From a virus, in the IMG/VR virus record IMGVR_UViG_3300035698_018961, positions 1 through 23,692 of that record: DNA of 23,692 bases, one strand, 5' to 3'. The notes below the pieces were generated by a model. It saw only the letters and a list, made by a program, of their open reading frames with translations. It did not search any database and had not been told where the DNA came from. The first letter of the stretch is position 1. The number at the start of each line of letters is the position of its first letter. Shown here piece by piece: positions 1 to 18,622 of this stretch. The position numbers and the translations under genes were made by a program.

Positions 1-2758
1 TTAAGGCATTAGCTGTATCAACACCTGATAGTTTTGCATCAATCTCAGAGGCATCATTTTGTTTACCTATAACGGCTGCATTAACTTCGCTTGACGATGT
101 ATCAACACCTGATAGTTTAGCCGTAATTTGACCGTTAATAGTGTCATAGCCGGTTAATTTGGCATTAATTAAGGCATTAGCTGTTTGTTTACCAATTAAT
201 TTAGATTGAACCTCACTGTTTGTGTTGTCCTGGCCAAATGTTTTACTTTGAATTTCTCCGACAATTGTTTGTTTACCAGTAATTTTGCTTAAAACTTCAC
301 TATTATTGGTGTCTTGGCCGGTAGTTTTACCATTAATCTCATCACTAATGGTGTCAATACCTGACAATTTAGCATTGATTTCGTCATCTGCTGGGATTGC
401 TGTACCAATTAATCTAGCATTAATTTTAGAAAAACCATAATCTTGGCCGGTAGTTTTACCATTAATCTCATCACTGTCAGTAACTTTACCAATAATTTTG
501 GCATCAACGCTATAATTAATTAACGATTTACCATATATTTTAGCTAATACGCTTGAAAAAATATTTTGCTGGCCAATAGTTTTGGCACTGATCTCGTCAT
601 TAGTGGTATCTTTACCAGTGGTTTTAACACTGATTTCGCTGGTAGCTGTATCAACACCTGATAGTTTTGCATCAATCTCACCATTAGTGGTAATTTTTCC
701 GACAATCTTTGCATCGATCTCGTCATTAGTGGTATCTTTACCAGTGGTTTTAGCTTCAATCTCGCTAGCGCTTGAATCATTACCAACTAATTTGACATTA
801 ATATCAGCATTGCTTGTATCTTTGCCGGTTAATTTGGCATCTATTTTTTCGTTTATATTTTGTTTGCCAATTAATCTAGCCTCAATCTCGCTATTTGCAT
901 CGTCATGGCCGGTTAATTTGGCATCTATTTTTTCGTTTATATTTTGTTTGCCAATTAATCTAGCCTCAATCTCGCTATTTGCATCGTCATGGCCGGTTAA
1001 TTTGGCATTAATTAAGGCATTAGCTGTATCAACACCTGATAGTTTTGCATCAATCTCACCATTAGTGGTAATTTTTCCGACAATCTTTGCATCGATCTCG
1101 TCATTAGTGGTAATTTTTCCGACAATCTTTGCATCGATCTCGTCATTAGTGGTATCTTTACCAACAACCTTGGCGATAATACTTGAATTGGCCGTATCTT
1201 TACCGGTCAAAATTGCCAAAATTTCGTCATTGGCCTCGGGTAAAAAACCAGTTATTTTTGCAAGAATTTCACCGGTGGCCGTATCTTTACCAGTGGTTTT
1301 AGCCACTATTTCACTATTAGCAGTTTGTTTTCCGGTGGTTTTAGCTTCAATCTCTGAGTTGGTATTTGTACCAGATGATTCACCGGTTAATTTAGCGCTT
1401 ATTTCACCATTTGAGCTTGGAAATGAAAAAGTCCAACCACTATTCTCTCCACTATTTTCAGAATTAGGACCAGCATAAAAAGTAGCTCCACCAGTAGCAG
1501 TGCTATTTTTAATATCTATATAATTGCAAATAATTTCACCAGATGATTTTGTAAAAGTATGGTTATCAGTTGAAATTGAAATTGAATCAACCGTAAAGAC
1601 TGCCGATGTATTGGTCATTTCATAATCACTCACCACACACTCATCATCGACTGAAAATGCTTCCGGATTCAGCATGTTTACAGAATGTTCGGTTAGCGTT
1701 AGTCCAGTAATTCCACCGTTACCATCAACAGAATCAACATTAGCCACAATATATGCCAAAACAGTGGGAAAATCTGGGTGAACAATAATAACAGTTTGAT
1801 CAACAGAATACCCACTGCCAGCAGTAGTGATTGAGCCAGATAATGACTCAAATTCACTAGGAGAAGAAATTTTTATATCATCATCTGCATCACCTCTAAT
1901 ATTTAAATTAGAAACCTGAAATGTTTTGTCCATTTCAAAAAATAAAGAGCTTGGTGGATTGACTGCTTTAATTTCATTACATATAAAATTACCACTGGTA
2001 GGAGCTAGAAAATAAATATTGCCAGCAGTGGATGTAATATTAATTTTATAAAGAGTTTGACCCCAATTTTGAATTGTTTTTTGACTATCATCAGAATTAC
2101 TTATCAAAATTGTTGATGTTTCACAATAAAGAGTTGTACCACCAGAGGCAGTAGTAACTCCAAATGATAAAAAATCATCATTAGTATCAGCACCGGTTGC
2201 TTCCCAAGTTCCTGAACCCATATAAACAACATTGTCATCAGCAGCATCTTGGAGATTGTTAATATTTATGTTAGAGGCAGTTACATCATAATCATTCGCA
2301 TCAAAAGTTCCACTTTCAATAGTAATATTATCATTAGTTTCAAGATCATCAGATAAAGTCCAAGTTCCACCACCTGTATAAGCTTCATTTCCAAAATATA
2401 AATATCCATTCATGGCTACACCAGCAGTATCAATAGTTTCGGTTTCAGTTGATAAAAAATAAGTATCAGTAGACCAAGTTATCCCACTCTCTAAAGTGAT
2501 TGAACCATAAATTGACAATTGATTAGAACCTATAATGCTATAAGTATCATCACTATTAGAGGTAAAATCGTGACAATACCAGTTTCCATCAATTACTAAA
2601 TTCCCACCACTATCAAAGCCAGAATTTGAATCAACAATTACATCATCACCTAAAGCCGGTTTATTTCCGTCAGCAGGAGAACCACCAGAGCTAGTGGCCC
2701 AATGAGTATCGTCATCTGACCAATTTCCTGCACCACCAACCCAATATCTATCTGCCAT
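1..2758 (-). CDS. Giant virion/surface-type protein with 14-residue tandem repeats (partial, C-terminus outside window)
   Basis: This open frame runs from ATG at 2758 off the left edge, at least 919 codons without a stop. The N-terminus reads MADRYWVGGAGNWSDDDTHW, an opening I associate with secreted and phage structural proteins that fold as parallel beta-helices. Residues 1 to about 451 are rich in Ser, Thr, Asn, Asp and Gly, with beta-type spacing and almost no Cys. From residue 452 onward there are at least 33 copies of a 14-residue unit, consensus E-I-x-A-K-[LT]-[TSV]-G-K-D-T-x-N-x, with occasional 15 to 17-residue units. It starts 2 bases after the stop of the preceding gene and has no clear ribosome site, so translational coupling is likely. 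A tail fibre, spike or adhesin role is inferred from position at the end of the structural region and from fibrous repeats; the function is not proven. Confidence 0.85.
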   Translation of the reverse strand, partial: MADRYWVGGAGNWSDDDTHWATSSGGSPADGNKPALGDDVIVDSNSGFDSGGNLVIDGNWYCHDFTSNSDDTYSIIGSNQLSIYGSITLESGITWSTDTYFLSTETETIDTAGVAMNGYLYFGNEAYTGGGTWTLSDDLETNDNITIESGTFDANDYDVTASNININNLQDAADDNVVYMGSGTWEATGADTNDDFLSFGVTTASGGTTLYCETSTILISNSDDSQKTIQNWGQTLYKINITSTAGNIYFLAPTSGNFICNEIKAVNPPSSLFFEMDKTFQVSNLNIRGDADDDIKISSPSEFESLSGSITTAGSGYSVDQTVIIVHPDFPTVLAYIVANVDSVDGNGGITGLTLTEHSVNMLNPEAFSVDDECVVSDYEMTNTSAVFTVDSISISTDNHTFTKSSGEIICNYIDIKNSTATGGATFYAGPNSENSGENSGWTFSFPSSNGEISAKLTGESSGTNTNSEIEAKTTGKQTANSEIVAKTTGKDTATGEILAKITGFLPEANDEILAILTGKDTANSSIIAKVVGKDTTNDEIDAKIVGKITTNDEIDAKIVGKITTNGEIDAKLSGVDTANALINAKLTGHDDANSEIEARLIGKQNINEKIDAKLTGHDDANSEIEARLIGKQNINEKIDAKLTGKDTSNADINVKLVGNDSSASEIEAKTTGKDTTNDEIDAKIVGKITTNGEIDAKLSGVDTATSEISVKTTGKDTTNDEISAKTIGQQNIFSSVLAKIYGKSLINYSVDAKIIGKVTDSDEINGKTTGQDYGFSKINARLIGTAIPADDEINAKLSGIDTISDEINGKTTGQDTNNSEVLSKITGKQTIVGEIQSKTFGQDNTNSEVQSKLIGKQTANALINAKLTGYDTINGQITAKLSGVDTSSSEVNAAVIGKQNDASEIDAKLSGVDTANAL
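824..991. repeat. Perfect 84-bp tandem duplication (two 42-bp units)
   Basis: Bases 824-907 and 908-991 are identical copies of a double unit, and the first 17 bases recur again from 992. Perfect identity among otherwise diverged units indicates a recent slippage or unequal recombination event inside the repeat array. Confidence 0.9.
1061..1144. repeat. Perfect 42-bp tandem duplication, part of a dispersed 92-bp repeat
   Basis: Bases 1061-1102 and 1103-1144 are identical. In addition 1021-1112 is identical over 92 bp to 643-734, exactly 378 bp (nine units) away, and 1012-1058 matches 1-47. The array therefore contains long-range block copies as well as adjacent duplications. Confidence 0.88.
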
Positions 2759-2760
2759 AA

Positions 2761-3213
2761 TTATTCAACTTTATTTTTAAATAATACCCAACTATTTTTT
2801 GAATTATTCTCATCAACCCATAATTGCAAACTGCCAAAAGAGTAAATTGCCTCAATAACAGTAAACCAATCATCAAAACCATGCTCATTAAGAGGCACTA
2901 CAACGCCATTTTTAAGACCTGCAACATTTCTGCCAATGGTTCTAAACATTTGATAATCAAGGGGTTTTTCAAGGTCGCTAAACGCCTTAAACTTTGGATT
3001 TTTACCGGCCGATGGTAAATTAAAGCTTTGACCATCGTTGGTATAAAGAGATAATGAGGTAATTTGCGCCTCATTCTCTATTAAATATTTTTGCAATCTC
3101 TGCCATGGGGATAATTGGTCGGGAATTTCTATAAAATCCCCTTTATCTTCAAAAAAAGTTTCACCTGTACTAAGTGAAACCTGCCATTTTACATTATGAT
3201 TTAAAGTCTGCAT
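2761..3213 (-). CDS. Hypothetical phage protein, 150 aa
   Basis: No named family is recognised. The protein is soluble, begins MQTLNHNVKWQVSLSTGETF, and has a beta-rich first half with an SPWQRLQKYL segment at residues 35-44 and the conserved-looking stretch FNLPSAGKNPKFKAF near residues 64-78. The general pattern (a short protein about a quantity measured on 'SLSTGETF') resembles hypothetical proteins in structural regions of environmental phages. The start is well supported: GAAAGGAGG lies 7 bases upstream of ATG. It sits between a small 69-aa gene and the giant repeat protein and ends 2 bases before the latter, so the two are probably co-translated. It could be a chaperone or baseplate/fibre accessory, but that is only positional inference. 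Confidence 0.8.
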   Translation of the reverse strand: MQTLNHNVKWQVSLSTGETFFEDKGDFIEIPDQLSPWQRLQKYLIENEAQITSLSLYTNDGQSFNLPSAGKNPKFKAFSDLEKPLDYQMFRTIGRNVAGLKNGVVVPLNEHGFDDWFTVIEAIYSFGSLQLWVDENNSKNSWVLFKNKVE

Positions 3214-3274
3214 TAGCAGCCTCCTTTCTTTAATAATTATTAAGTCTCGATTGAGCCTCGTTAATTAAAATTAA

Positions 3275-3484
3275 TTAAATTTTAACTGTATATGATTTTT
3301 TACCGACAATAACTTGGATGTCACCTGGCTGTAAATTGATTTTTTTATCAGCGTCAACAATTCCGGCAATCCCTGCAATTCTGACTCTTTGTTTACCAAT
3401 TACATCTTTTGCCTCAAATTGATTGTCACCAACTTCAAAAGTAGTACCGACTTTTTCAAAGACTTCAAGTGCTGTAAATTTCAT
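3275..3484 (-). CDS. Small hypothetical protein, 69 aa
   Basis: The protein reads as a compact all-beta fold: alternating hydrophobic residues, two short glycine-flanked strands (RIAGIAGIVDADKKINL near residues 34-51) and a basic end SYTVKI. No catalytic or metal-binding motif is visible. A good ribosome site (AAAGGAAAAC) precedes ATG, and the gene starts 8 bases after the upstream structural gene ends, so it belongs to the same transcript. Its length and context suit a small virion accessory or head-tail protein, but I do not recognise a family. Confidence 0.7.
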   Translation of the reverse strand: MKFTALEVFEKVGTTFEVGDNQFEAKDVIGKQRVRIAGIAGIVDADKKINLQPGDIQVIVGKKSYTVKI

Positions 3485-3492
3485 GTTTTCCT

Positions 3493-4038
3493 TTATGAGT
3501 AGGTTAATTCGCTTCTAATAGCAAAAGCAGTTTTTTCACCGACTGATTCTGGGCTGGCTGAAACTAAGACATAGAAATCGTGACTTGTAGCTGATCCGCT
3601 ATCAGTAATTGTTAGCGCTGCGGCTGATCCCTCGGCATTTGTCCAAGCAGCGTCACCTTGTTCGGCAGCTTGAAAAGTCACTCCGGTTGGTACGGCCGTG
3701 GTGGTTGTACCATCATAAGCATATAAAGTGTGACCGGTAACTGCTACGGCTGATGCGTGAGCAAAATTAATCTTTAAAGTACATTCTGCGTCAGTAATAT
3801 CAGCCAATGATTCAGTGCCATCACCCCAATCACCAGTACCACTAGCAACATATTTGACATTGTTTGGGGTATTTCCGGATGAATTATCTGCGCTAGTTGA
3901 CTCATCTTCGACATGGGTGCTGTCATTGTATGCACCAACTGTGATGGCACTGTCAAAAGTTGCGCCAGCAAATTGTAAAATATCTGCACCGATGGTGGTT
4001 GGTGAGGTTCCTTGTAATGTCCAGGTATATGTTGCCAT
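3493..4038 (-). CDS. Thr/Ala/Ser-rich phage structural protein (virion-associated, 181 aa)
   Basis: The sequence is dominated by Thr, Ala, Ser, Gly and Asp, with no helix-forming or catalytic signature. It begins MATYTWTLQGTSPTTIGADI and contains ITVGAYNDSTHVED and GDAAWTNAEGSAAAL. This pattern recurs in small virion proteins of marine and environmental phages, probably with an immunoglobulin-like or jelly-roll fold; I judge decoration or minor tail protein as the likeliest role, without proof. A ribosome site (AAAGGAAAAAAAG) precedes the ATG. The gene follows the glycosyltransferase cassette and opens the last structural group in the window, so it is a plausible substrate for glycosylation because of its many surface Ser/Thr residues (inference). 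Confidence 0.75.
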   Translation of the reverse strand: MATYTWTLQGTSPTTIGADILQFAGATFDSAITVGAYNDSTHVEDESTSADNSSGNTPNNVKYVASGTGDWGDGTESLADITDAECTLKINFAHASAVAVTGHTLYAYDGTTTTAVPTGVTFQAAEQGDAAWTNAEGSAAALTITDSGSATSHDFYVLVSASPESVGEKTAFAIRSELTYS

Positions 4039-4105: not shown

Positions 4106-5167
4106 TTAAATCAAATTTTTTAGTAGTTGTCTAATATCATTTGATTCTGACTCAAAGTTAATTTTAGCAATAAAGTTATTGTAAGTGTTAGTAAATAGGG
4201 CCTCATACCTGCTTTGTTCACTATAATACTCAATTTTATTAACAATCTCATCAATTGTTAAATTATCAATAGTGATGCAAGTTTCACCATCTCTCATTAA
4301 AACATCACCAAGTTTACCAATATAATGGGACCGTCTCACGATTAGTGGCCTAGCTACGGCGGCAGCATTATGAATAATGTGACCATAGCCATCACCAGCA
4401 TTTTTGGTGTGCCAAATAAATTTTGATCTAGTCATCGCATTTGCTAAGTTTTGGGACCCACTAGCATTACCATCACGGCAACCACCACCATAAACATTAA
4501 ATTGCCAATCAGGCATCTTTTTTTCAACCTCTTGAAAAATTGCCCAATCAAAAGAAAATAATTGGTCAGTATTAAAACAATTAACAAACGATGTAATGAT
4601 TTGTTTTGGCTTGGTATTGGTTGATGGGCGAAAAACCTTTAAATCAAATTCTTGGTGGTATTCAACAAATGGCAAATTAGGCTTAACTGGTAAACGGGCC
4701 GATGCTAGGACCGCATCAATCATCGTTTCCTGTGACGGTGAGACATTCCAATTATTGCCAATTTGATAAATCAGCTTTGGTTTGTTCGGGTGAATATTGC
4801 AAAGTTTTCTAAACGGCTCAATGTGCTGCGGAATTGATGCAATAACTATATCAAAATGACTACTCATAAAACCATTAAAAGTGATGGCCTTATTTGTTTT
4901 ACCACTATCAATGTCGTTGCAAAAATAAACCTCACCACCGTCATAATCTTTAATTTGGTTCAATTTTGGTGTATTGTCCGGCGTGGCACCGCCAATCCCT
5001 AAAAACTGCTCAACGGTAGCAGGATGATCATAAACTTTCCAATAACCTCGCTCGTGCCATTCTTTACCAATGGGCCTATATACTTGTCCGCCTAATCTAT
5101 TTTCAAAAAGTAAAATTATTGAATTTAAAAGTGATGCGTGGTGAAAATCTGTAAAAACTTTATACAT
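4106..5167 (-). CDS. Glycosyltransferase-like protein, GT-B fold (353 aa)
   Basis: The layout fits a GT-B glycosyltransferase: an N-terminal Rossmann-like half with strands at HFDIVIASIPQ (104-114) and KLIYQIGNNW (131-140), then a second half with FNVYGGG (223-229) and a donor-site region GDGYGHIIHNAAAVARPLI (258-276). In active GT4-type enzymes that last region carries an E-x7-E motif; here the glutamates are replaced, so the nucleotide-sugar contact differs or the protein is non-catalytic. It is the final member of the sugar cassette, and its leader is the GC-rich spacer at 5168-5277. There is no Shine-Dalgarno sequence before ATG, only a TATAAT about 20 bases upstream. Fold assignment is moderately sure; substrate is unknown. 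Confidence 0.72.
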   Translation of the reverse strand: MYKVFTDFHHASLLNSIILLFENRLGGQVYRPIGKEWHERGYWKVYDHPATVEQFLGIGGATPDNTPKLNQIKDYDGGEVYFCNDIDSGKTNKAITFNGFMSSHFDIVIASIPQHIEPFRKLCNIHPNKPKLIYQIGNNWNVSPSQETMIDAVLASARLPVKPNLPFVEYHQEFDLKVFRPSTNTKPKQIITSFVNCFNTDQLFSFDWAIFQEVEKKMPDWQFNVYGGGCRDGNASGSQNLANAMTRSKFIWHTKNAGDGYGHIIHNAAAVARPLIVRRSHYIGKLGDVLMRDGETCITIDNLTIDEIVNKIEYYSEQSRYEALFTNTYNNFIAKINFESESNDIRQLLKNLI

Positions 5168-5277
5168 AATTACTATTGATTATTTATTATAGGCTCTCCC
5201 CTACTCCGCCCCTATGCCCCTCTTTTTACCCGAGTACAATTTGAAAAAGTACCTCTCCCCCGGTAGGGTAGGGGAGA
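5168..5277 (-). promoter_or_regulatory. GC-rich inverted-repeat spacer between two glycosyltransferase genes
   Basis: This is a 110-bp gap in an otherwise gap-free cassette. It contains 10-bp perfect inverted arms, TCTCCCCTAC at 5195-5204 and its complement at 5268-5277, plus a nested 7-bp stem at 5254-5260/5271-5277. On the coding strand there are several GGGG runs close together, a possible quadruplex, followed by TATAAT at 5191-5186 and then the ATG at 5167. No -35 matches at the right distance. It may act as a terminator/attenuator for the upstream genes, an internal promoter, or a recombination scar. Confidence 0.45.
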
Positions 5278-6033
5278 CTAACTCAATTTTTCGTTTTTAA
5301 GTGATCTATTAGCTGCAATGAATAAAGCAGCCGTTTTATAAAACCTTAAATCCATGTTAATTATGCGCTCATGGCCCATTTTTAAACATGTCTCTAAATA
5401 CCCTAAAAACTTGCTGGTTTCGTAATTTGGGACCTCACCACTGGCTAATAAATTCCAATTATGTGATAAACCATTAAAGTGAAAAAAGCTTTTATCTTTG
5501 GCCTCAGCTCTATCAGACATTAAATGTGTCTTTGCCCCGGCTAGTTTTAAATCTTGCTGAAAAACACCGAAGTGGTCCAATTTATCTTTTACAATCCCAA
5601 AGTTTTTAGTGGTCCGGTCAATAATTTCTCTTTTAGCAAAAATGCAACATGGGTGAAGTCTGCCGCTAACATTGACACCAATCACATCTTTGATCTCCGC
5701 CATTGCTTCGACCTCATCCCAAAACACCAAATAAGTAATCCAAAAATCTTGCTCAGTAAACCAAACCCATTCAGCCTTTGATTGCTTTAGTGCTGCATTA
5801 ACGGCCACATTTCGCCAATCTTGATCACCGGTGACTGGTGGTGAATTAATAAAAGTAATTTTATCGTCTGCCATAGATTCTCTGACAAACTCTTCATAAT
5901 TATCGCCACTATATGTTTTAGTGAATACGACAAAAACTTGGTTAAAGCGCTCTCGCTCTTTTCTAATCATTAATCGCCAAATAGGGTAGTCATTATTAGT
6001 GGGCCAGCTAACTATAATGTCGGGTTTTGTCAT
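5278..6033 (-). CDS. GT-A-like glycosyltransferase (251 aa)
   Basis: The N-terminus DIIVSWPTNNDYPIWRLMI followed by FVVFTKTY fits the first beta-alpha-beta of a GT-A nucleotide-sugar transferase. The sequence AEWVWFTEQDFW (residues 88-98) sits where GT-A enzymes carry their DxD metal-binding motif, here as E94-Q95-D96, so metal binding is plausible but not canonical. Residues 105-135 contain the acceptor-side segment with two adjacent cysteines (HPCCIF). Length is typical of a small family-2-like enzyme. The ATG overlaps the stop of the preceding transferase by 4 bases (ATGA), a strong sign of coupled translation. Substrate unknown; confidence in the fold class is moderate. Confidence 0.65.
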   Translation of the reverse strand: MTKPDIIVSWPTNNDYPIWRLMIRKERERFNQVFVVFTKTYSGDNYEEFVRESMADDKITFINSPPVTGDQDWRNVAVNAALKQSKAEWVWFTEQDFWITYLVFWDEVEAMAEIKDVIGVNVSGRLHPCCIFAKREIIDRTTKNFGIVKDKLDHFGVFQQDLKLAGAKTHLMSDRAEAKDKSFFHFNGLSHNWNLLASGEVPNYETSKFLGYLETCLKMGHERIINMDLRFYKTAALFIAANRSLKNEKLS

Positions 6034-7082
6034 AATCCTATTTCCTTGTAAATTCTTTGTCTTTGTCTGATTCTTTTAATTTTTAATTTATACTGATCAA
6101 TGATGCGATAAACTGCTTTTTTATAAAGCTCTTTAAATTCAGGAATTGCATCATCCGGAGCAGTTTCAACAAATGTGAGCCACTGTTGTACACGGCGCTC
6201 AAATTCAAATCTCTCATTTTCAGTCTGACACCATGATTTATTTATTAATGTCGGGCCACCATCGGGGTCAATTAAACGCCTAGTCAAAGATCGATTGCTA
6301 TCATCCATTAAAATACCACCAACGCCACTGCTCAGTGACCCAATATGACACCAGGGTGCCTTACTATCCCATAAACCCTGTCGTTTCTGATAATCATCAA
6401 TATCATTAGGGCTGCCGTGATATTGAGGTATATAAACAATGCGATTCTCTGGCACTATCGTTCTAAGTCTCAAACTAGCCTCGACAAAAGTATCACCGGC
6501 ATTAATTATGTCTTTAATAACATAGTCAAGCGGTTCAACTAATTGACCCACAACCCATGATGTTGCACCATAGTAGGGGATTTGTCTTAATAAATCAGTC
6601 TTGATAAAAAAGAAATTAGGCCAAAAATTGGGACCCTGATCGCCTAGGCCCTCATAATTTAAATGCCATTTTGCCTTTGCTGCTCTTAATATCTCTGTAC
6701 CGCATGAGCCTCGCTTGCTACCGATAATGTCGCAATCACCACTTTCAAGCTTTTTAAAGATAGCATTAACGGTCCCAGGTTTAAAAATAAAGCCATCATC
6801 TTCAACTAACATCACATAATCCTCAGTGACTTTAGCTAGGGTACGCTTAATAGCCTCACCATGCTCAATTTGGACATCGTTATAGGTAAAGTTAATCTTG
6901 GCGCTATGTTTTGCTAAACAAACGCTTTTAATGTATTTGACAACCTCCGGCTCAATGGTACTGTTTAAATAAATGTAAAGTGTATCGATCTCTGATCCCC
7001 AAACACGATCAAATAAATCAAGCCAATATCTAATTAAAAACGGATCGCCCGGGTAGGGTAGAATTGCTGCTCTGCTTCTCAT
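6030..7082 (-). CDS. Family 2-like glycosyltransferase, GT-A fold (350 aa)
   Basis: The protein begins MRSRAAILPYPGDPFLIRYW and has a clear GT-A pattern: beta strand TLYIYLN, then the sequence TEDYVMLVEDDGFIF, in which E94-D95-D96 is the DxD-type motif that binds the metal and nucleotide sugar. Further on, residues around 150-175 (a WPNFFFIKTDLL stretch) fit the acceptor-side sheet, and a basic coiled tail ends the protein. I place the start at 7082, one base after the previous stop; a longer reading from 7103 would add seven residues and overlap the upstream gene by 20 bases. Neither start has a strong ribosome site. It lies between the methyltransferase and another GT-A gene with a 4-base overlap, so it is part of one coupled cassette. 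Confidence 0.78.
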   Translation of the reverse strand: MRSRAAILPYPGDPFLIRYWLDLFDRVWGSEIDTLYIYLNSTIEPEVVKYIKSVCLAKHSAKINFTYNDVQIEHGEAIKRTLAKVTEDYVMLVEDDGFIFKPGTVNAIFKKLESGDCDIIGSKRGSCGTEILRAAKAKWHLNYEGLGDQGPNFWPNFFFIKTDLLRQIPYYGATSWVVGQLVEPLDYVIKDIINAGDTFVEASLRLRTIVPENRIVYIPQYHGSPNDIDDYQKRQGLWDSKAPWCHIGSLSSGVGGILMDDSNRSLTRRLIDPDGGPTLINKSWCQTENERFEFERRVQQWLTFVETAPDDAIPEFKELYKKAVYRIIDQYKLKIKRIRQRQRIYKEIGL

Positions 7083-7083
7083 A

Positions 7084-7755
7084 TTATTTCCACTCAAAAT
7101 CATCTTTGCTAACTTTATAAAAACCAGTTAAACCTCTTGGGGTTGAAAAATGAAATGGCCTCAACTTTCCGGACCGCACTAATTCAATCATCGGTTTTGG
7201 TATCTTTCCATAGGGCCAAGCAAAGCCATGATCAGCATTAGGGATTTGGTGCATGTGTCGATGTAAGTCGTGGATAAAAATAAAGCCACCCTCTGCTAAA
7301 TTATCGTAAAATTTTAATAACTCTTCAAAGCGTGTCTGGGGTTCTGTATCAAGTAAAATCATTTCGTAAGTTTTACCCTCTGGATTAAATAAACGAACAT
7401 CACCAAAATGGCAAGTAACAACATCATCAAGCTCTAAATCAGTCATTCTTTGTTTAGCTCGCTGGTGAATCTCTGGCAAAAATTCAATAGTATCAAGGTG
7501 TCCGGTGTGATTATCTTTAAGCGCTTGGCCCATATACGAGGCACCAATACCCCAATGGGTCCCTGTCTCGAGTATATTATGGGGTTTTAATACTCTAGCC
7601 ATAGCATAAAGAAACTCTCCGGTCTCAACTTCAATGCCAGCATCGTTAAAAGATGAAAAACCAGAAATGCTCGGATTAAATGGCTGGTCCCAATGATTCT
7701 CATTGTGTTGAATAAGTGTTGAATCAAGCTCTTGCAATTTTTTGGTAATATTCAT
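7084..7755 (-). CDS. Class I SAM-dependent methyltransferase (223 aa)
   Basis: The Rossmann methyltransferase core is visible: motif I ILETGTHWGIGASYM (residues 61-75) for S-adenosylmethionine, an acidic end of strand 2 at LDTIE (88-91) that would bind the ribose, GDV at 118-120, and ILLDTEPQTRFEELL (133-147) with a following HDLH (162-165) resembling the metal-assisted O-methyltransferases of the Methyltransf_24 group. These usually methylate hydroxyls on sugars or small molecules. Set between glycosyltransferases and the phosphatase-like gene, it probably caps or decorates a glycan made by the cassette (inference). A TTTTCCTTTTAT-complement gives a ribosome site AAAGGAAAAACT just before the ATG. 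Confidence 0.85.
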   Translation of the reverse strand: MNITKKLQELDSTLIQHNENHWDQPFNPSISGFSSFNDAGIEVETGEFLYAMARVLKPHNILETGTHWGIGASYMGQALKDNHTGHLDTIEFLPEIHQRAKQRMTDLELDDVVTCHFGDVRLFNPEGKTYEMILLDTEPQTRFEELLKFYDNLAEGGFIFIHDLHRHMHQIPNADHGFAWPYGKIPKPMIELVRSGKLRPFHFSTPRGLTGFYKVSKDDFEWK

Positions 7756-7766
7756 AGTTTTTCCTT

Positions 7767-8174
7767 TTATAGATAAGCAGCACCAATGTCAAAATCAGGC
7801 CACAAACTTTTTAATTCTAGCATAATCTCATAAATTGTTTTTTGCTCTAATTCACAAATTGCTCTACATGCGACAAAAGAGGCTTGTTTACTTGGATCGT
7901 CTGAGATAATTAAAACTTTTTCACCACATTCGATCATATACTTGGGGATATGGCAGGCAATATCTTTGACATGGGGTTTATTAATAGCATTTGCCTGTAA
8001 ACCAACTTTAAAAATAGAAATGTTAAGCTTTTTTAAATTGCCAATGGCTGCTCTAGTCATTAATAAATCAGTATCAACTAAAACAATCGCACTAATGTCA
8101 TTTTTATTTGAAACCAATAAAATACCGACATCATCTAAATCACCTAAAAATAAATTGTCTCTAAACTTTATCAT
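7767..8174 (-). CDS. Dual-specificity phosphatase-like protein lacking the catalytic Cys (135 aa)
   Basis: The fold follows small dual-specificity phosphatases: MIKFRDNLFLGDLDDVG at the start, a central sheet, then GEKVLII at residues 84-90 where the P-loop should follow, and a closing helix ending SLWPDFDIGAAYL. In active enzymes the loop is HC-x5-R; here it is ISDDPSKQASF with no Cys and no Arg. The protein is therefore likely a pseudo-phosphatase that binds rather than cleaves, or a partner of a glycosyltransferase. I chose the ATG at 8174 because GAGAGG lies at the right distance; a longer frame from 8234 would overlap the previous gene more deeply. The gene overlaps the preceding transferase by 14 bases. 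Confidence 0.62.
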   Translation of the reverse strand: MIKFRDNLFLGDLDDVGILLVSNKNDISAIVLVDTDLLMTRAAIGNLKKLNISIFKVGLQANAINKPHVKDIACHIPKYMIECGEKVLIISDDPSKQASFVACRAICELEQKTIYEIMLELKSLWPDFDIGAAYL

Positions 8175-9183
8175 TTGACCTCTCAAGAAATGATTGCCAT
8201 TGTTTAGCAATTTTTTCTTTGCCAAAAATCTCAATTGCTCTTTCCCTCGAGTTGTGTGAGATTTCTTTAGCTAAATCATAATTATTAATTAACTGATCAA
8301 TTCTGAAACGCATGTCTTGGACCGAGTCACAAATAAAACCGCTTTTGCCGTTTTCAATAATCTCATCAGCTTCATAAAAATCAATTTTTTCAAAGTCTGA
8401 AATGTGTGCTAACTTTTTGCTAATTGCTACCACCGGGATGCCCAACATCATGTACTCCATGAGTGACAAAGTGTAAGACGCCGGCCAAGTGCCGCCATAA
8501 ACTGCCACCCGAGCATCTTTTAATATCTCAAGCATTTTGGCAAAACCAACCTCACCACCGTTAAGATTTCCAAGGTCCTCATTACCGGTCCCATAAACTT
8601 TAGAGCCATAACCAATGATCGATCCTAAAATTTCTTTATAGTGGCAAAATTGCCCTCTGCCTTTTAAACTCTGTGAAAAATTAACAACTCTTTTACTATT
8701 ACCAACCCAGCCACTAAATGTGTCCTGGTCCTTGTAAAACCTAATTAAAGCGTCTCCACCTAGGTAATTTGGTATATTGGCTTCTTTAGGTGAGTAGCGC
8801 ACTATTTCAAGGCCCTCAGCTCGCATCGGCGCTAAACGCTTCTCGATGTTAGAAACTGATTGACCAATTGTTCGCCAAATAACTCTTTTATGTTTAATTT
8901 TCTGCCAGTTATTCACAATTAAATCGGGAGTGTGCATAACTATGATCACATCAAACGGCTCAATTAACTCTTGAGGTAAATTTGTCCTGGCTTCATTAGT
9001 TGCTAGTGAAATCATCTCATCTGGCCACTTTTTTGCACAATCAATCCCTGGCCGTGGTAGTGAAAAATGGCCGGCCGGGTCTAAATAGGCGCCATTACTA
9101 AAAACATCATGCCCCAATTCAGTCAAAAGTTTAACTTCGTCATATTCTAGGACCGCATGACATGATAAATAGTGAATTTTCAT
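8161..9183 (-). CDS. Glycosyltransferase, GT-B fold (340 aa)
   Basis: The protein starts MKIHYLSCHAVLEYDEVKLL and has an N-terminal Rossmann domain (FDVIIVMHTPDL at 77-88, then KRVIWRTIG at 99-107). The C-terminal domain has GSKVYGTG (193-200), a VAVYGGTWPAS segment (226-236) and LMEYMMLGIPVVA (241-253), which corresponds to the donor-binding EAMA-x-G-x-P-V motif of GT4/GT1-type enzymes; the first glutamate of the usual E-x7-E pair is absent. The ATG overlaps the stop of the small membrane gene by 4 bases, so its translation is coupled to that leaderless gene and it should be transcribed from the promoter at 9362-9391. Acceptor and sugar cannot be read from the sequence. Confidence 0.82.
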   Translation of the reverse strand: MKIHYLSCHAVLEYDEVKLLTELGHDVFSNGAYLDPAGHFSLPRPGIDCAKKWPDEMISLATNEARTNLPQELIEPFDVIIVMHTPDLIVNNWQKIKHKRVIWRTIGQSVSNIEKRLAPMRAEGLEIVRYSPKEANIPNYLGGDALIRFYKDQDTFSGWVGNSKRVVNFSQSLKGRGQFCHYKEILGSIIGYGSKVYGTGNEDLGNLNGGEVGFAKMLEILKDARVAVYGGTWPASYTLSLMEYMMLGIPVVAISKKLAHISDFEKIDFYEADEIIENGKSGFICDSVQDMRFRIDQLINNYDLAKEISHNSRERAIEIFGKEKIAKQWQSFLERSNDKV

Positions 9184-9353
9184 TTGTTTATAATCACCTC
9201 AATAATCATTAATAAAAGTATGATCAAAATTAATGGCCAAGCAAAAAGCACAATTACTGGATTAATTCTGCTCGGACCTGAATTAGCATCGTGTTTACTT
9301 ATAAAAGTTGCTAATACTAAACCGACTGAAAAATATATTAAAATAGCGATCAT
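9180..9353 (-). CDS. Small two-TM membrane protein (57 aa)
   Basis: The sequence has two hydrophobic helices, about residues 3-18 and 32-54, joined by a polar loop (SKHDANSGPSRIN), so a hairpin in the inner membrane is expected. I place the start at 9353 rather than at 9380, because the region 9362-9391 is a strong promoter and the upstream ATG would lie inside it. The mRNA would then begin at or within a base or two of the ATG. It overlaps the next glycosyltransferase by 4 bases (ATGA). Function is unknown; a flippase-like partner, a membrane anchor for the transferases, or a holin-like peptide are possible, and its place at the head of the sugar genes favours a role with them. Confidence 0.6.
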   Translation of the reverse strand: MIAILIYFSVGLVLATFISKHDANSGPSRINPVIVLFAWPLILIILLLMIIEVIINK

Positions 9354-9361
9354 GTAATTAT

Positions 9362-9391
9362 AGTGTAAAGCAATTGTCATATAGTTGTCAA
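9362..9391 (-). promoter_or_regulatory. Promoter A with 11-bp-spaced direct boxes, heads distal glycan operon
   Basis: On the coding strand the -35 is TTGACA at 9391-9386, followed by an 18-base spacer and a -10 TACACT at 9367-9362. The ATG of the small membrane gene starts 8 bases after the -10, so the transcript should be leaderless or nearly so. Two TTGTCA boxes (9374-9379 and 9385-9390, plus-strand reading) lie 11 bp apart, one helical turn, a layout expected for an operator. The element fits exactly in the gap between the previous TAG and this gene. It matches promoter B (22746-22775) in 26 of 30 positions. Confidence 0.72.
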
Positions 9392-9395
9392 CTAG

Positions 9396-9674
9396 CTAAA
9401 TGATAATATCAGTTTTCTTTTTGTTTTTATCGTTAATCCCACCGGTGTGACCAATAAAATTCTTGCTTTGTTTACCTTTACCAGCTCCAAGCTTTGACAA
9501 ATCTGTTATTGGTCTTTGACATGGGAAATGGGACCGTGCTATTAGCATCATCACATCTCTTTTTTTCAAACGAGCATCGTACCTGAAAATGCTATCGCAA
9601 TGTTTGCAATGCCAGTCTTGCTTTCCCTTTGGGGTGTCCATTCTGTTAATTGGTTGCCAATCGTGCTGTCTCAT
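9396..9674 (-). CDS. Small zinc-binding protein, 92 aa
   Basis: WHCKHCDSIF at residues 21-30 is a zinc-knuckle half-site (C23, C26). A second ligand group may be H49 and C52 in RSHFPC, giving a C2HC-like site; after that the tail is basic and glycine/lysine rich. Small proteins of this type (Trp, CxxC, a linker, then a single Cys) are common phage accessory proteins of unknown role. The start at 9674 overlaps the upstream glycosyltransferase by 29 bases; a shorter start at Met12 (9641) would remove the overlap but neither has a clear ribosome site. It ends just before promoter A. A role in assembling or regulating the glycan enzymes is only a guess. Confidence 0.6.
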   Translation of the reverse strand: MRQHDWQPINRMDTPKGKQDWHCKHCDSIFRYDARLKKRDVMMLIARSHFPCQRPITDLSKLGAGKGKQSKNFIGHTGGINDKNKKKTDIII

Positions 9675-10770
9675 AGATTTGTTTTAACCTTTCGTGCATT
9701 TTAATGCCTATGACCTTTGTGTCAAAGCGCTGATTTATAATTTTTTTACCAAACTCACCAATTCCCTTGGCTTCTTTTTGATTATCAAAAGCCCAGCGCA
9801 TCGTTTTGCGCAAGTTATCAATATCAATCTCGGCCCAATTTTGATCCGGGCAATACCATTGAGCATTTCTTGATACATTTTGGACCGGGACCATTTTACA
9901 ATTAACCAACATTGCTGCATCTCTAATATGCTCGTGAATACCTCCGCAATCAGTAGAAATTACAAGTTTACCCATGAGCATTGCTTCCATTTGCGGTATG
10001 CCCCAGCCTTCGCCTCTGTGAGCGCTCACAAAGCAATCAAATGTTTCGTGGAAACGATAAATTTGTTTTCGGTCCATTAAGTGTTTATAAAGATAAATTG
10101 GGGGATAGTGGTCAAGTTTTATTTTCTTCTTGAGTATATTAATATATTGATCAATTTCTTTGCGATGATGAGGGTCGAAGTTGTCGACATAAGTTTTGAG
10201 CGTGAGACTAACTCCCTGGATGTTTTCAAACTCTCTCCAATATGCCTCGATTAATGCTTCCGGGTTTTTTCTAGTGGTCCACTCAAATATTGAATAAAAT
10301 TTAAAATCTTTTTTGTTTTCGACAATATATGGGTCCACTTTTGGTCCCGGTGTAACAATTGCTTCGGGGATGATATAAATTGGTTTAGTAACGCCGGCGT
10401 TTCTTATGGCCTGTGCATTAAACTCACTGCCGGTCCAAACTTCGTCACAAAAATTGATTCCGGTCGCAAATTCTTTGGGCAATTTGTCAGTTTCCCAAAA
10501 GACACGGCCAATGTTATATTTACCCGGTTCAATATAATTACCATAAATGTTGGGGGTTGTGTGAATAATCTTGATCTGATAGTCAAATTTATTAGTATTT
10601 AACCTCTGGACTAACTCACCTAATGCCCCAAAATCGGCTATTTCTAAACAATGCCTTGTTAGCTCGACTTCTACATCGACACCAACATCATTAAGCGCTG
10701 CAATATCATGCCGATTCGCTTCGCCATAACCTGAATAATCCAAAGCCGATCCGCAATACTTTATTTTCAT
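9646..10770 (-). CDS. Glycosyltransferase, GT-B fold, GT4-like (374 aa)
   Basis: This is the clearest transferase here with its neighbour at 10992. The N-terminal domain begins MKIKYCGSALDYSGYGEANRH, a glycine-rich loop that fits the start of many GT4 enzymes. The C-terminal domain has FKFYSIFEWTTRKNPEALIEA (about 156-176) and the donor motif RGEGWGIPQMEAMLMG (252-267), with E254 and E262 forming the E-x7-E pair that contacts the nucleotide sugar. The reaction is transfer of a sugar from a nucleotide donor with retained anomeric configuration, by family analogy. The ATG lies 22 bases after the stop of a zinc-ribbon gene without a recognisable ribosome site. Substrate unknown. Confidence 0.88.
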   Translation of the reverse strand: MKIKYCGSALDYSGYGEANRHDIAALNDVGVDVEVELTRHCLEIADFGALGELVQRLNTNKFDYQIKIIHTTPNIYGNYIEPGKYNIGRVFWETDKLPKEFATGINFCDEVWTGSEFNAQAIRNAGVTKPIYIIPEAIVTPGPKVDPYIVENKKDFKFYSIFEWTTRKNPEALIEAYWREFENIQGVSLTLKTYVDNFDPHHRKEIDQYINILKKKIKLDHYPPIYLYKHLMDRKQIYRFHETFDCFVSAHRGEGWGIPQMEAMLMGKLVISTDCGGIHEHIRDAAMLVNCKMVPVQNVSRNAQWYCPDQNWAEIDIDNLRKTMRWAFDNQKEAKGIGEFGKKIINQRFDTKVIGIKMHERLKQIYETARLATN

Positions 10771-10792
10771 AAGCTAACGATCTTTTTTTGTT

Positions 10793-10981
10793 TTAGATTT
10801 TAACCCATCGGTTTAATTCATTCAAAACAATCTCTTTGCCACAAACTTTGCAGGTGATTTTTACACCCATCATTTTATTGCTGCTTTCAATAGCAACATT
10901 TGTGCAAGCCGGACATAAGTATTTAAACTTTGCCTTTGGAGCAGGCTTGGAAATGATTTTTGTCAATTCTTTTTTTGCCAT
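10793..10981 (-). CDS. Zinc-ribbon miniprotein (62 aa)
   Basis: Two CxxC pairs are visible, C23/C26 in YLCPACTN and C44/C47 in ITCKVCGK, separated by 17 residues, which is a standard zinc ribbon. The N-terminal 20 residues are basic (KKELTKIISKPAPKAKFK) and could bind nucleic acid or an acidic partner. A strong ribosome site, AAAGGAGGTTTT, directly precedes the ATG, so it is well expressed. It sits between two GT4-like glycosyltransferases and ends 22 bases before the next ATG. I do not recognise a named family; similar miniproteins are common in phage genomes. Confidence 0.72.
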   Translation of the reverse strand: MAKKELTKIISKPAPKAKFKYLCPACTNVAIESSNKMMGVKITCKVCGKEIVLNELNRWVKI

Positions 10982-10991
10982 AAAACCTCCT

Positions 10992-12218
10992 TTATATTTT
11001 CTCGAGCGTTAATACATTTTTTAGTTTTCGCTCGGGTATTGGTTCACTTATTATATCGTTAAAAATGGTTTTAATCATCTTTGCAGTGTTTTTGATAGAC
11101 CACTGCTTGACATACTCAGAGGCTTTTTTACCTATCTCAAGCGCCTGATCTTGATGCTCGTAAACATAACGCATCTGGCGCCTCAAGTCAGCCACATCAC
11201 TGACATACATTTCGCCAGTATCTTCATTTTTATATCGTTGATAAAGCGCATCGCACATCTCACCAACTTTGACCTCATACATATAATTAGCATTAAAATA
11301 TTCAGTTATCCCGTGGGCGTTAGGTACGATCGTGGGTAAACCGGTTGCCATTGCTTCAAGTGGGGTCATCCCAAAGCCCTCACCTCTCGAGGGAAAAACA
11401 AAAGCATCGGACCGGCCACATAAATCAGCAAGCTCATGGCTCTCATAGGCCCCATTGATTACCTCAATATTTGGGTATCTCACTGGTGAAATTGGAAATG
11501 GTAAACTTTTAAGATTTGTTTTAAAAATTAATTTAACTGGCTCATCCGGGGCAAATTCTTTAGTAAAAGCCTGAAAAACCTCAACAAATCCTTTGCGGAT
11601 ATTAAAAGCGTTGTAATGTAAAAAAACAAACTCTTTTTTAGCTTTGCGCTTATTCTCTCTCTCGATGTAGGTATAAACACGATCATCATAGCCAAGGGGG
11701 ACCACCTCAGTCTCAATCCCTGATTTTTTAAATACATCGTGGCACCATTGACTCGGGACCAATATTTTTTCGGCTGATTCTAAGTAATCAAGCCAACTAT
11801 CAGGAATTTTGGTGCTTTCAAACATCGTGTAAAGTATTCGATATGGTGCCTCTAATCTCAAAATTGAGTATGGATTGTGAAATAATAAAGCAATTTTCTG
11901 GCCGTTGTTTTTAAAAGTTGTATTTACTCCCAGGGCGTTTAGCTCTCTAATCATGCCCTCGCTGGCTACACTGTAACCATCTTTTCCGCCTTGCGACACG
12001 GTGGCCATATAAATACCGTCTTTTTCGTATTTAAGCCGGTTTTGATTCTGTAAAGCCTTTTTGCGCATTGATTCAAACTTTAAATTACGCATTGTTTGGT
12101 ATTCAATAATTTCTTTTTGGTCCGGTATTGTAAAACCTTTGGTATTAAGCAATTGATTATATTCGCTTTGCTCTTCAATCTGGACAATACGATTACCGGG
12201 ATTAATTAAATATAACAC
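10992..12218 (-). CDS. Glycosyltransferase, GT-B fold, GT4-like, with extra N-terminal segment (408 aa)
   Basis: Residues 1 to about 65 form a separate small module (MLYLINPGNRIVQIEEQSEY, then a helix) before the catalytic core starts at GIYMATVSQGGKDGYSVASEG (68-88), a glycine-rich loop of GT4 type. The donor-site motif SRGEGFGMTPLEAMATGLP (277-295) carries E280 and E288 in E-x7-E spacing. The gene starts with GTG, has no ribosome site, and lies about 20 bases downstream of the MCP terminator; a TAAACT seven bases before the GTG could be a -10 for another leaderless transcript, but the -35 is poor. It is the first gene of the glycan cassette, so read-through or a local promoter must supply its transcript. 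Sugar and acceptor unknown. Confidence 0.88.
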   Translation of the reverse strand: MLYLINPGNRIVQIEEQSEYNQLLNTKGFTIPDQKEIIEYQTMRNLKFESMRKKALQNQNRLKYEKDGIYMATVSQGGKDGYSVASEGMIRELNALGVNTTFKNNGQKIALLFHNPYSILRLEAPYRILYTMFESTKIPDSWLDYLESAEKILVPSQWCHDVFKKSGIETEVVPLGYDDRVYTYIERENKRKAKKEFVFLHYNAFNIRKGFVEVFQAFTKEFAPDEPVKLIFKTNLKSLPFPISPVRYPNIEVINGAYESHELADLCGRSDAFVFPSRGEGFGMTPLEAMATGLPTIVPNAHGITEYFNANYMYEVKVGEMCDALYQRYKNEDTGEMYVSDVADLRRQMRYVYEHQDQALEIGKKASEYVKQWSIKNTAKMIKTIFNDIISEPIPERKLKNVLTLEKI

Positions 12219-12239
12219 GACAATAAGTTTACACTAATT

Positions 12240-12277
12240 TTAAACAAAACAAAAGAGCCACCTCAAAGAGATGGCTC
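12240..12277 (-). terminator. Rho-independent terminator after the major capsid gene
   Basis: On the coding strand GAGCCATCTC pairs with GAGGTGGCTC through a TTT loop (10 pairs, one G-U), positions 12277-12255, followed at once by TTTTGTTTTGTTT. This is the only hairpin in the window with a proper T-tract. It separates the head module from the glycan cassette. Confidence 0.9.
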
Positions 12278-12300
12278 AGTTGCTCTAGTTGATCGTTAGC

Positions 12301-13218
12301 TTAAAAACTTTCAACTTCAACAATTCGGCGTTGATCCATGATAGCTACTCCATAGAGCAGATCAAGGGTCAATTGGTGAGCGCCGAGATCACCGTTGTAC
12401 CAGAATAAGGTACGCAGGGATAATCCGACACTTGGATCGTTGATTACACCGGACAAAACACCGGTACCGGCCATTGGCTTCTCGAGTGGTCGAGATGCTA
12501 AGACCAAGGCGTTTTTGGTGTAGGCTAAGTTGTGATAAGCGGCTGGTGAGCCGGATTTCTGTACAACTTGGCTTTCCCAAGATTCAATACCGTAGGTTCT
12601 AACGACTTGACCTTGTGAGATCGATTCATTAGCGCCTCGTGCATCAAAACGGGTGTATTTATCAACACCTAACAAATCATTAAAGACCGTGCCATCAGCG
12701 TAAAAATAACGCTGTTCTAATCGTGGCACCTTTTGATCAGTAAAGAATTTGCGAATCGCCAACATGACACCATCAATAGTGGCATCACTGGTGCGGTCCC
12801 AAGTCAGAGTGTTCTCAATTTGGGCGTGCATACTTGCGAGTGAAGTTTCCACTGCTTCGGCTAACGCTAAAGCGCCATCCTCTGCATAACCATTTTGAGT
12901 GTCTTGGTTTTCTAAAACCTTGGTAACATCATCGATGGTCAAAGTGACCTCTTTGTGTTTATCAAGAGTAACCGAGACATTGGTGGCCGTTGGATTTTGC
13001 TTGGTGAAATTTTCACCGGCAACTTTATCGTTGGCAATCACTGCGCCTCGTTTTGGCACTTGGATGGTGGCTCCCTCTTTGGTCACTGTCCAATCGCTGT
13101 CACGACTGATCGTGCGAGCTAAATTTAAATAACTAGGGAACTTACCAATTGCTTTTTGTGCAATTATGGTAGGGATGAACACCGCATTAGTGGTGTTGTT
13201 TAAGACATTTTCTGCCAT
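12301..13218 (-). CDS. Major capsid protein, P22 gp5-like coat family (305 aa)
   Basis: The N-terminus MAENVLNNTTNAVFIPTIIA followed by QKAIGKFPSYLNLARTISRDSDW matches the coat-protein pattern I know from P22 gp5-like families, including VPKRGAV and the segment FTKQNPTATNVSVTLDKHKE (about 83-102) and IDDVTKVLENQD (105-116). The fold would be HK97-like; it assembles the procapsid shell around the scaffold. A strong site, AAAGGAGGT, lies 5 bases upstream of ATG, as expected for a highly expressed virion protein. It follows the scaffold gene by 77 bases and is followed by the rho-independent terminator at 12240-12277, so it closes the head transcript. Confidence 0.93.
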   Translation of the reverse strand: MAENVLNNTTNAVFIPTIIAQKAIGKFPSYLNLARTISRDSDWTVTKEGATIQVPKRGAVIANDKVAGENFTKQNPTATNVSVTLDKHKEVTLTIDDVTKVLENQDTQNGYAEDGALALAEAVETSLASMHAQIENTLTWDRTSDATIDGVMLAIRKFFTDQKVPRLEQRYFYADGTVFNDLLGVDKYTRFDARGANESISQGQVVRTYGIESWESQVVQKSGSPAAYHNLAYTKNALVLASRPLEKPMAGTGVLSGVINDPSVGLSLRTLFWYNGDLGAHQLTLDLLYGVAIMDQRRIVEVESF

Positions 13219-13295
13219 TTTATACCTCCTTTTAACTAATAATATTTACCTAAGTTAAGGCTGGGCAGCTTATTACTAGATTTTTGAGGTTTCCG

Positions 13296-13937
13296 TTAAG
13301 CAGGCAAATCGTTTTCGATTTGATTGTTTTTCATGGCTTCCAAAATTTCAGCTTCGTGTTCTTGGTAAAATTTAGGCTCTTGAATTTGACTATGGGTAAA
13401 TTTCTTTTTACCGCTGGTGTCATTTTCGCCTGGACTTGTACCCGACCCGACAGTTGTATCGTTTCCGCTTGCTTCACCCTTTAAATAGGGTTTTGATTCG
13501 AGCAGGCTTTTGACTTGCTCTTCGACACCGGTTATGGTGCCATCTTCTGCAACCGTAATTTTATCTTGATCAACCAATTTCGTTATGACCTCTAAATCTT
13601 TGGCGCCTAGAGTCTGGGCAATATTCATTATTTGTATTCGCTTTTCAGCGGCTTCAAACTTGGCTTTTTGTTTTTCTGCCAATTCTTTATATTGCTTGTT
13701 CTCTTCGAGTTTTGCCGTTTCTAAATCCTCGAGTTTTTTGCTGGCCGTTCGACCAACTTTGGCGTCATCATTCAGCTGCTTAAAGCGTGGGTGATTCCAA
13801 AGTCTTGCATCATCGAAGATTTTGGCAAAATCCTCATCAGACAAACTTTTTGAATCGAACGCTTTATCGTCTCCGGTTTTCTCGTTTTTTTTAATTGGGT
13901 CGGTCCCATCTTTGACGATTTTTTTCTCTTCTGGCAT
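13296..13937 (-). CDS. Capsid scaffold protein (213 aa)
   Basis: The sequence is strongly charged, low in aromatic residues and Cys-free. A coiled-coil or long helix runs over about residues 62-105 (alternating E, K, A, L). A Gly/Ser/Thr linker at about 155-172 precedes a short C-terminal helix that scaffolds use to bind coat protein (FYQEHEAEILEAMKNNQIEN, 188-207). Position directly upstream of the coat gene and downstream of portal and minor capsid genes is the classic place for a scaffold. The leader contains promoter C; the ATG has no good ribosome site, which is odd for a protein needed in large amounts, and its leader carries a small GTGG/CCAC dyad at 13957-13969. Confidence 0.85.
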   Translation of the reverse strand: MPEEKKIVKDGTDPIKKNEKTGDDKAFDSKSLSDEDFAKIFDDARLWNHPRFKQLNDDAKVGRTASKKLEDLETAKLEENKQYKELAEKQKAKFEAAEKRIQIMNIAQTLGAKDLEVITKLVDQDKITVAEDGTITGVEEQVKSLLESKPYLKGEASGNDTTVGSGTSPGENDTSGKKKFTHSQIQEPKFYQEHEAEILEAMKNNQIENDLPA

Positions 13938-14008
13938 TTTTAATTCATTTTTTATCGTGGTATGCCCACTTTAAAAAATGCCTTTCATATTAACTTTTTA
14001 CTGTCTTG

Positions 14009-14037
14009 ATTATGATTGACTTTTTATTTTTTGTCAA
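14009..14037 (-). promoter_or_regulatory. Promoter C for scaffold and coat genes, -35 inside the preceding gene
   Basis: TTGACA at 14037-14032, a 17-base spacer, then CATAAT at 14014-14009 (five of six to consensus). The -35 is formed by the last codons of the minor capsid gene. The spacer is flanked by inverted TTGAC/GTCAA arms (14016-14020 and 14033-14037), so a regulator could bind here. It would give an extra transcript for scaffold and coat, the proteins needed in the highest copy number. Confidence 0.62.
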
Positions 14038-14926: not shown

Positions 14927-14933
14927 AAAAACA

Positions 14934-16481: not shown

Positions 16482-16521
16482 ATTTTAAAAGTATATCATT
16501 TTTACTGCTTCATTTTAATTA

Positions 16522-18619: not shown

Positions 18620-18622
18620 AAT

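Follow-up and report, generated by a model that had tools for sequence, protein, structure and literature searches.

A core sugar-enzyme cassette behind the capsid gene probably glycosylates the particles of a group of uncultured tailed phages

INTRODUCTION

To our knowledge, only a few cultured phages and algal giant viruses have so far been found to build a methylated sugar chain on their own particle. According to published accounts, mycobacteriophage capsid and tail-tube proteins carry glycans, cluster O mycobacteriophages have three tandem glycosyltransferases (GTs) beside an O-methyltransferase, and F1 mycobacteriophages (Che8 and its relatives) have GTs near the 3' end of the 60-kb genome (PMC11600133, PMC12619734, PMC11256854). 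In the chlorovirus PBCV-1, a methylated glycan is assembled on the capsid protein in the cytoplasm by GTs and a methyltransferase that the virus itself encodes (PMC7826918), and the sugar genes of Patescibacteria phages have been assigned to host-surface adhesion (PMC12911398). Here we describe a cassette of six GT genes and one methyltransferase gene that directly follows the major capsid gene in a 23,692-bp IMG/VR virus record (IMGVR_UViG_3300035698_018961; the whole record is referred to as the window).

We conclude that this cassette is probably a core, late-expressed pathway that glycosylates the phage's own particle. The best explanation of its product is a multi-sugar, O-methylated oligosaccharide on a virion protein, synthesized stepwise in the cytoplasm.

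RESULTS AND DISCUSSION

Conservation of the cassette across relatives

A preliminary description of the window, made from its sequence alone, had named the presence of the same cassette in related phages as a check. All seven enzymes were indeed found in one fixed order, GT4a-(ZnR)-GT4b-GTBc-MT-GTAa-GTAb-GTBd, before the head-tail connector genes in 23 records, a count that includes the window and a copy in a metagenome-assembled genome (MAG), as well as a few near-identical pairs; MT is the methyltransferase, ZnR is a small zinc-ribbon protein, and GTAa is present in one or two copies. A scan whose sole query was the capsid protein returned 25 viral contigs, and searching with the last GT brought in additional records. 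GT4a was the first recognized gene after the capsid gene in 24 of 24 relatives with sequence beyond the capsid in the capsid-only scan and in all 37 records with room when all scans were considered. Judging from size, order, and sequence, the genes downstream of the cassette appear to encode connector, head-closure, gp10-like, terminator, zinc, tail-tube, chaperone, tape-measure, and tail proteins.

One relative, G001, appears to be complete (33,235 bp, with a 127-bp direct terminal repeat) and is the smallest of the family's genomes. Its cassette (11594-19109; 7.5 kb) occupies 23% of the genome, with the connector gene immediately after it, and no integrase was seen in this genome. Another genome, G004 (L028-L030), is probably complete as well, because the same tail genes (~3.4 kb) occur at both ends of its 40.9-kb contig; no exact terminal repeat was detected in it.

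The ratio of nonsynonymous to synonymous substitutions (dN/dS) was 0.086 for GT4a, versus 0.050 for the capsid gene and 0.069 for the portal gene, and the corresponding ratio of proportions (pN/pS) for the seven enzymes was 0.13 to 0.39 in another pair in which synonymous sites are near saturation. Together with the conserved catalytic residues described below, these low values show the marks expected of functional enzymes under purifying selection. Because order and motifs are kept in 23 records and selection is purifying, the cassette is not a product of chance. Its presence in order in all relatives with room rules out a mobile accessory island, and, on genomic grounds, the cassette is a core component as constant as the portal or terminase. 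We found no description of this phage lineage among open-licence PMC papers.

In two divergent relatives, GT4a has kept its place next to the capsid gene, and the remaining sugar genes have been exchanged for others. In one of them (L100), these are genes for a two-domain GT, a further GT, a GDP-mannose 4,6-dehydratase, and a methyltransferase-like protein; in the other (L103), three GT domains (GT4, GT4, GT2) are joined in one 994-aa protein. Parts of the cassette also occur, with other neighbors, in other metagenomic phages of 53 to 304 kb (L073, L074, L078-L081). Three of those loci (L079-L081) have near-identical neighborhoods in contigs of 55, 65, and 304 kb, where GT4b, GTBc, two GTBd copies, GTAa, and GTAb lie amid many other sugar genes.

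Seven core enzymes

The cassette was confirmed, by Pfam or by predicted fold (Z 16-23), to encode four GT-B and two GT-A glycosyltransferases and one S-adenosylmethionine (SAM) methyltransferase (Table 1). The preliminary description had already read six proteins as GT-like and one as a SAM methyltransferase; Pfam matches, predicted folds, and profile alignment bear out the former, and the Methyltransf_24 match bears out the latter. GT4a, GT4b, and GTBc score above the Pfam GT-B group 1 cut-offs. The E-x7-E donor motif, which had been pointed out in two of the GT-B enzymes, is invariant in the alignments of both GT4 families (E280/E288 in GT4a and E254/E262 in GT4b), and GTBc, whose profile matches GT4b (E 2e-7), keeps only the second Glu (E243, invariant). 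GT4a also carries an N-terminal extension of ~70 residues without a known family match in Pfam or PHROGs. The top PDB relative of GT4b is the chlorovirus GT B736L (3oy2; E 3e-6), and those of MT are bacterial O-methyltransferases (E 2e-12). MT, in which the motifs ETGT, DTEP, and HDLH are invariant, probably O-methylates a sugar of the glycan.

GTAa aligns by profile with GTAb and is the GT-A enzyme for which an EDD motif had been noted; that motif is conserved, with D103 invariant and E101 nearly so. A T-E-x-D motif is conserved in GTAb. Because profile searches of GTAa, GTAb, and GTBd against PDB sequences gave no meaningful match, folds were predicted for GTAb and GTBd. All structural neighbors listed for the GTAb model are glycosyltransferases (GT2-type). 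The GTBd model has a full-length GT-B/GT4 fold and is closest to TarM (Z 22.8; 299 residues aligned), followed by BshA, MshA, and protein O-GlcNAc transferases. A profile comparison of GTBd with GT4b gave no match, and the class of GTBd was settled by its predicted fold; its GDGYGH motif is invariant. No transmembrane helix was found in the core enzymes of the window and G001, which look soluble.

Table 1. Features of the window from the capsid gene to the contig end (pLDDT, predicted local distance difference test)
Feature	Position	Strand	Evidence or remark
Major capsid protein, P22-type HK97 fold	12301..13218	-	Pfam P22_CoatProtein, 52 bits
Terminator-like hairpin	12255..12277	-	10-bp stem and T run, in the 82-nt gap between the capsid gene and GT4a
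GT4a, GT-B glycosyltransferase	10992..12218	-	Glycos_transf_1, 59 bits; GT4-conflict, 43 bits
ZnR, small zinc-ribbon protein (62 aa)	10793..10981	-	Two CxxC pairs; weak zinc-ribbon matches
GT4b, GT-B glycosyltransferase	9646..10770	-	Pfam group 1, 38 bits
Zinc-binding-like protein (92 aa)	9396..9674	-	No family match
Membrane peptide (66 aa)	9180..9380	-	Open reading frame; limited to the window and L002
GTBc, GT-B glycosyltransferase	8161..9183	-	Pfam Glycos_transf_1, 28.9 bits
136-155-aa protein, formerly "phosphatase-like"	7767..8177	-	No phosphatase match; not core
MT, class I SAM methyltransferase, core	7084..7755	-	Methyltransf_24, 41 bits (cut-off 26)
GTAa, GT-A glycosyltransferase (357 aa)	6030..7103	-	Weak GT2 match and E-D-D motif
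GTAb, GT-A glycosyltransferase (251 aa)	5278..6033	-	Model pLDDT 92, Z 16
GTBd, GT-B glycosyltransferase, last core gene	4106..5167	-	Model pLDDT 90; below Pfam cut-off
acc32, Thr/Ser-rich protein (181 aa)	3493..4038	-	28 loci, most without the cassette
acc33 (69 aa), acc34 (150 aa), and repeat-rich fiber-like protein (at least 919 aa, cut by contig end)	1..3484	-	Rest of the portable module

Post-capsid hairpin and expression

The capsid gene and the cassette are separated by a gap with a terminator-like hairpin. A comparable hairpin with a T-rich tail occupies the same gap in 17 of 19 relatives, versus ~1 expected from block shuffles; its position is conserved, whereas its sequence differs among relatives. 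We read it as a leaky terminator that may set the capsid gene apart from the enzyme and tail genes. A second terminator-like hairpin was observed at 5254-5277 of the window, within the 110-nt gap that precedes the gene for the last GT.

A proposed virion glycosylation pathway

In the proposed pathway, late-operon transcription would pass the leaky terminator behind the capsid gene, which would leave the capsid protein in excess over the enzymes. GT4a would start the chain in the cytoplasm, with the major capsid protein as the likeliest of the virion proteins to receive it, and the five other GTs would add sugars singly from host nucleotide sugars, while MT, joined in some phages by a second methyltransferase (acc37), would O-methylate a sugar. 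Once complete, the oligosaccharide would form a coat on the particle, which it could shield, help to attach, or stabilize. The preliminary description had likewise predicted a multi-sugar, methylated glycan and had recognized more than a single DNA-base glucosylation enzyme, and both points are supported.

A virion protein made in the cytoplasm is favored for four reasons: the cassette lies inside the late structural module; the core enzymes showed no transmembrane helix, and G001 and a set of 96 accessory proteins from six relatives yielded no flippase, oligosaccharyltransferase, polymerase, or lipid-carrier transferase; no base-modification enzyme was found in the same protein sets; and divergent relatives swap the other sugar genes and retain GT4a by the capsid gene.

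Candidate acceptors

We infer from gene linkage that the capsid protein serves as acceptor and GT4a as the first enzyme: the major capsid protein, whose gene always adjoins GT4a, is the most likely acceptor, and the tail-tube protein is the next candidate. The preliminary description had instead proposed the 181-aa Thr/Ser-rich protein (acc32) and the repeat protein, a proposal that failed a check of co-variation across 28 acc32 loci. The seven-gene cassette, complete or in part, is present at only four of these loci and the GT4a variant at a further three, whereas no homologue of the seven families was found in the DNA read at the remaining loci, a few of which are short or start next to acc32. 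At four inspected loci, acc32, acc34, and a large fiber-like protein lie shortly after other capsid genes. Cassette phages, for their part, often lack the acc32 module, and in six of them, including the complete G001, the last GT gene is followed by the connector gene with nothing inserted. Since acc32 is found behind other capsid genes in phages lacking the cassette, and those six cassette phages have no insert, the module is portable and its origin is unconnected with the cassette. Co-variation thus rules out the adjacent Thr/Ser-rich protein as a specific acceptor; the acc32 module would be a particle part and perhaps a head fiber. This three- to four-gene particle module (acc32-acc34-acc35) was seen after unrelated capsid genes in the window (1-3484) and at L087, L091, L104, and L109.

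Ser/Thr-rich repeat proteins recur downstream in other relatives, with 37% Ser in G011 (long SPS repeats) and 24% Thr in G007, and such large proteins could be secondary substrates. The G011 protein has 1185 aa with long Ser-Pro repeats; between it and the cassette (L023/L047; G011:15627-20274) lie extra GT-A-like proteins, a nucleotide-sugar dehydrogenase-like protein, and a methyltransferase.

Alternative explanations

Several points weigh against the proposed pathway. Neighborhood is no proof of an acceptor, the distance correlation between GT4a and the capsid protein (0.48) is no higher than that with other proteins, and the capsid protein is without a Ser/Thr-rich tail. The structural neighbors of GTBd also include a DNA enzyme, T4 alpha-glucosyltransferase, and the case is wholly genomic. 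Distance correlation was also tried as a means of picking the GT partner of the capsid and was rejected, as no GT stands out; the genes seem to reassort within the lineage. Among the other possible targets, the downstream fiber-type proteins, as first suggested, or the tail tube could carry the glycan in place of the capsid. The Ser/Thr-rich composition of the variable downstream proteins in G011 and G007 and the additional GTs and nucleotide-sugar dehydrogenase-like protein of G011 are in line with this, as are the conserved GDST-like tail in which the tail-tube proteins end and the glycosylation of mycobacteriophage tail tubes; yet the insert is absent in six cassette phages, G001 among them, and the acc32 module occurs mostly without the cassette, and we consider this explanation improbable. 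Glycosylation of modified bases of the phage DNA is more doubtful still and strikes us as very improbable. Here the likeness of GTBd to the T4 enzyme is one among many, and DNA hypermodification with diverse glycans is a known activity of phage GTs (Pyle 2024, cited in PMC12619734); however, no known type of enzyme for making the modified base (thymidylate synthase or hydroxymethylase, TET, or 7-deazaguanine) was found in G001 or the 96 accessory proteins, and it would be unusual for such a role to find six GTs and a sugar-type methyltransferase within a late capsid operon.

A change of the host surface is a live rival, although weaker than virion glycosylation and, in our judgment, unlikely. 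The enzymes would then decorate a surface glycan, lectin ligand, or S-layer during infection and block superinfection, or, in an episymbiont host, alter how that host attaches to the cell on which it lives. Should the phage host be a Patescibacterium, the phage sugar genes of that group have been read in this way (PMC12911398), and several of the GTs have the teichoic-acid GTs TarM, TarP, and TarS as structural neighbors. However, the cassette is located in the late structural module rather than in an early or lysogeny region, and its linkage to the capsid gene is tight and deep. The hallmarks of Gtr-type cassettes for serotype conversion or host O-antigen modification are missing, with no transmembrane helix in the core enzymes and no integrase in the complete G001; nor was any flippase, lipid-carrier enzyme, or polymerase found in G001 or the 96 accessory proteins. 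We retain glycosylation of the virion as the preferred reading.

Host

The sole genome match is a contig in a Patescibacteria MAG, on which gene positions match those of the relative L023. A capsid search of 380 Patescibacteria genomes returned only the MAG already found, and a GTBd search of Patescibacteria genomes returned the same MAG and two weak partial matches. As homology searches added no further genome, the host assignment rests on one co-binned 34-kb contig, and the host is tentatively Patescibacteria, by co-binning only.

Genomic context and noncore proteins

Read on the minus strand, the window runs from replication genes through terminase, portal (SPP1_portal), minor capsid protein (Phage_min_cap2), and a scaffold-like protein to the major capsid protein (P22_CoatProtein), followed by the cassette (12218-4106), the 181-aa Thr/Ser-rich protein, two small proteins, and the repeat-rich protein. 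The P22-type HK97-fold capsid, terminase, and portal identify a tailed phage, and the capsid protein is 66 to 93% identical in 18 relatives. All cassette open reading frames (4106-12218) are on the minus strand, in keeping with the one-strand arrangement first described. They had also been called mostly overlapping, which holds for about half of the junctions; the remainder are mostly gaps of 10 to 22 nt, with one of 110 nt.

The smaller cassette genes had been described as two zinc-binding miniproteins, a phosphatase-like protein, and a membrane peptide, and these assignments fared unevenly. The 62-aa zinc ribbon, alone among the small cassette proteins, is present in most relatives by synteny, whereas the 92-aa protein is not core and its cluster is limited to the window and its closest relatives, L002 and L004. 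The supposed phosphatase was not supported in family searches; a similar protein is found in L050 (6314-6703). The membrane peptide exists as an open reading frame and is likewise not core. Two unrelated small zinc-ribbon proteins occupy fixed places in the late operon, one at 10793-10981 of the window and the other encoded by the t27 gene after the tail-completion genes in relatives; they may, like Mu Com, have a regulatory role. At 22790-23590, the window encodes a 266-aa protein with a signal-like N terminus, a CAP-like part, and an RlpA-like C terminus, and in relatives the early region retains a shorter protein of the DPBB (RlpA-like) type.

Implications

Phage sugar genes are usually catalogued as accessory or host-modifying. 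In these phages, seven sugar genes are core and take up to about a fifth of a small genome, and we regard them as a real, conserved system, probably a variant of phage virion glycosylation, that is unusual in its completeness, its capsid-adjacent place, and its constancy. If these enzymes do glycosylate the particle, virion glycosylation would be both ancient and essential in an abundant group of uncultured phages, and the lists of "auxiliary metabolic genes" in which such enzymes are put down to host-surface change would have to be reconsidered. For identifying the acceptor and the glycan, the gene set, the capsid-linked GT4, and the naturally swapped cassettes provide a system that is ready to use.

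Comparison with known systems

Like the mycobacteriophages, which encode their own GTs and in cluster O have an O-methyltransferase with them, the phages described here encode GTs together with a methyltransferase, both recognized from their genes. Unlike the mycobacteriophages, which have two or three GTs, they have six GTs and the methyltransferase directly behind the capsid gene in every relative long enough. In a tblastn search of 50,697 isolate-phage records, no Mycobacterium phage was among the matches listed for GT4a and GT4b, which came mainly from Streptomyces and Rhodococcus phages, and GTBc, GTAa, and GTBd had no match. The best isolate-phage matches of GT4a and GT4b, at 24 to 30% identity, are in Streptomyces and Rhodococcus phages (Blueeyedbeauty gp20-21 and Trina), which differ from the cassette phages in that their GTs number one or two and lie next to genes for ribonucleotide reductase and lysin, not behind the capsid gene.

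As in PBCV-1, the virus encodes multiple GTs and a methyltransferase, and the enzymes here are without a transmembrane helix and without a detected flippase or oligosaccharyltransferase. The closest PDB relative of GT4b comes from a chlorovirus, and the 994-aa protein of L103 resembles A111/114R of PBCV-1, which has three GT domains in one protein (A064R is among the other PBCV-1 GTs). PBCV-1, however, is an unrelated eukaryotic virus, of the nucleocytoplasmic large DNA type, with a 330-kb genome, an N-linked glycan, and a double-jelly-roll capsid, whereas the capsid here has a P22-type HK97 fold; the two have no gene order in common and descent is unproven, and they share at most the same way of working. 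We tentatively suggest, as a possibility with somewhat less than an even chance of being right, that small tailed phages, perhaps of episymbiotic Patescibacteria, have a chlorovirus-like, virus-encoded capsid glycan made by an obligate core, late-operon pathway that a capsid-dedicated GT starts.

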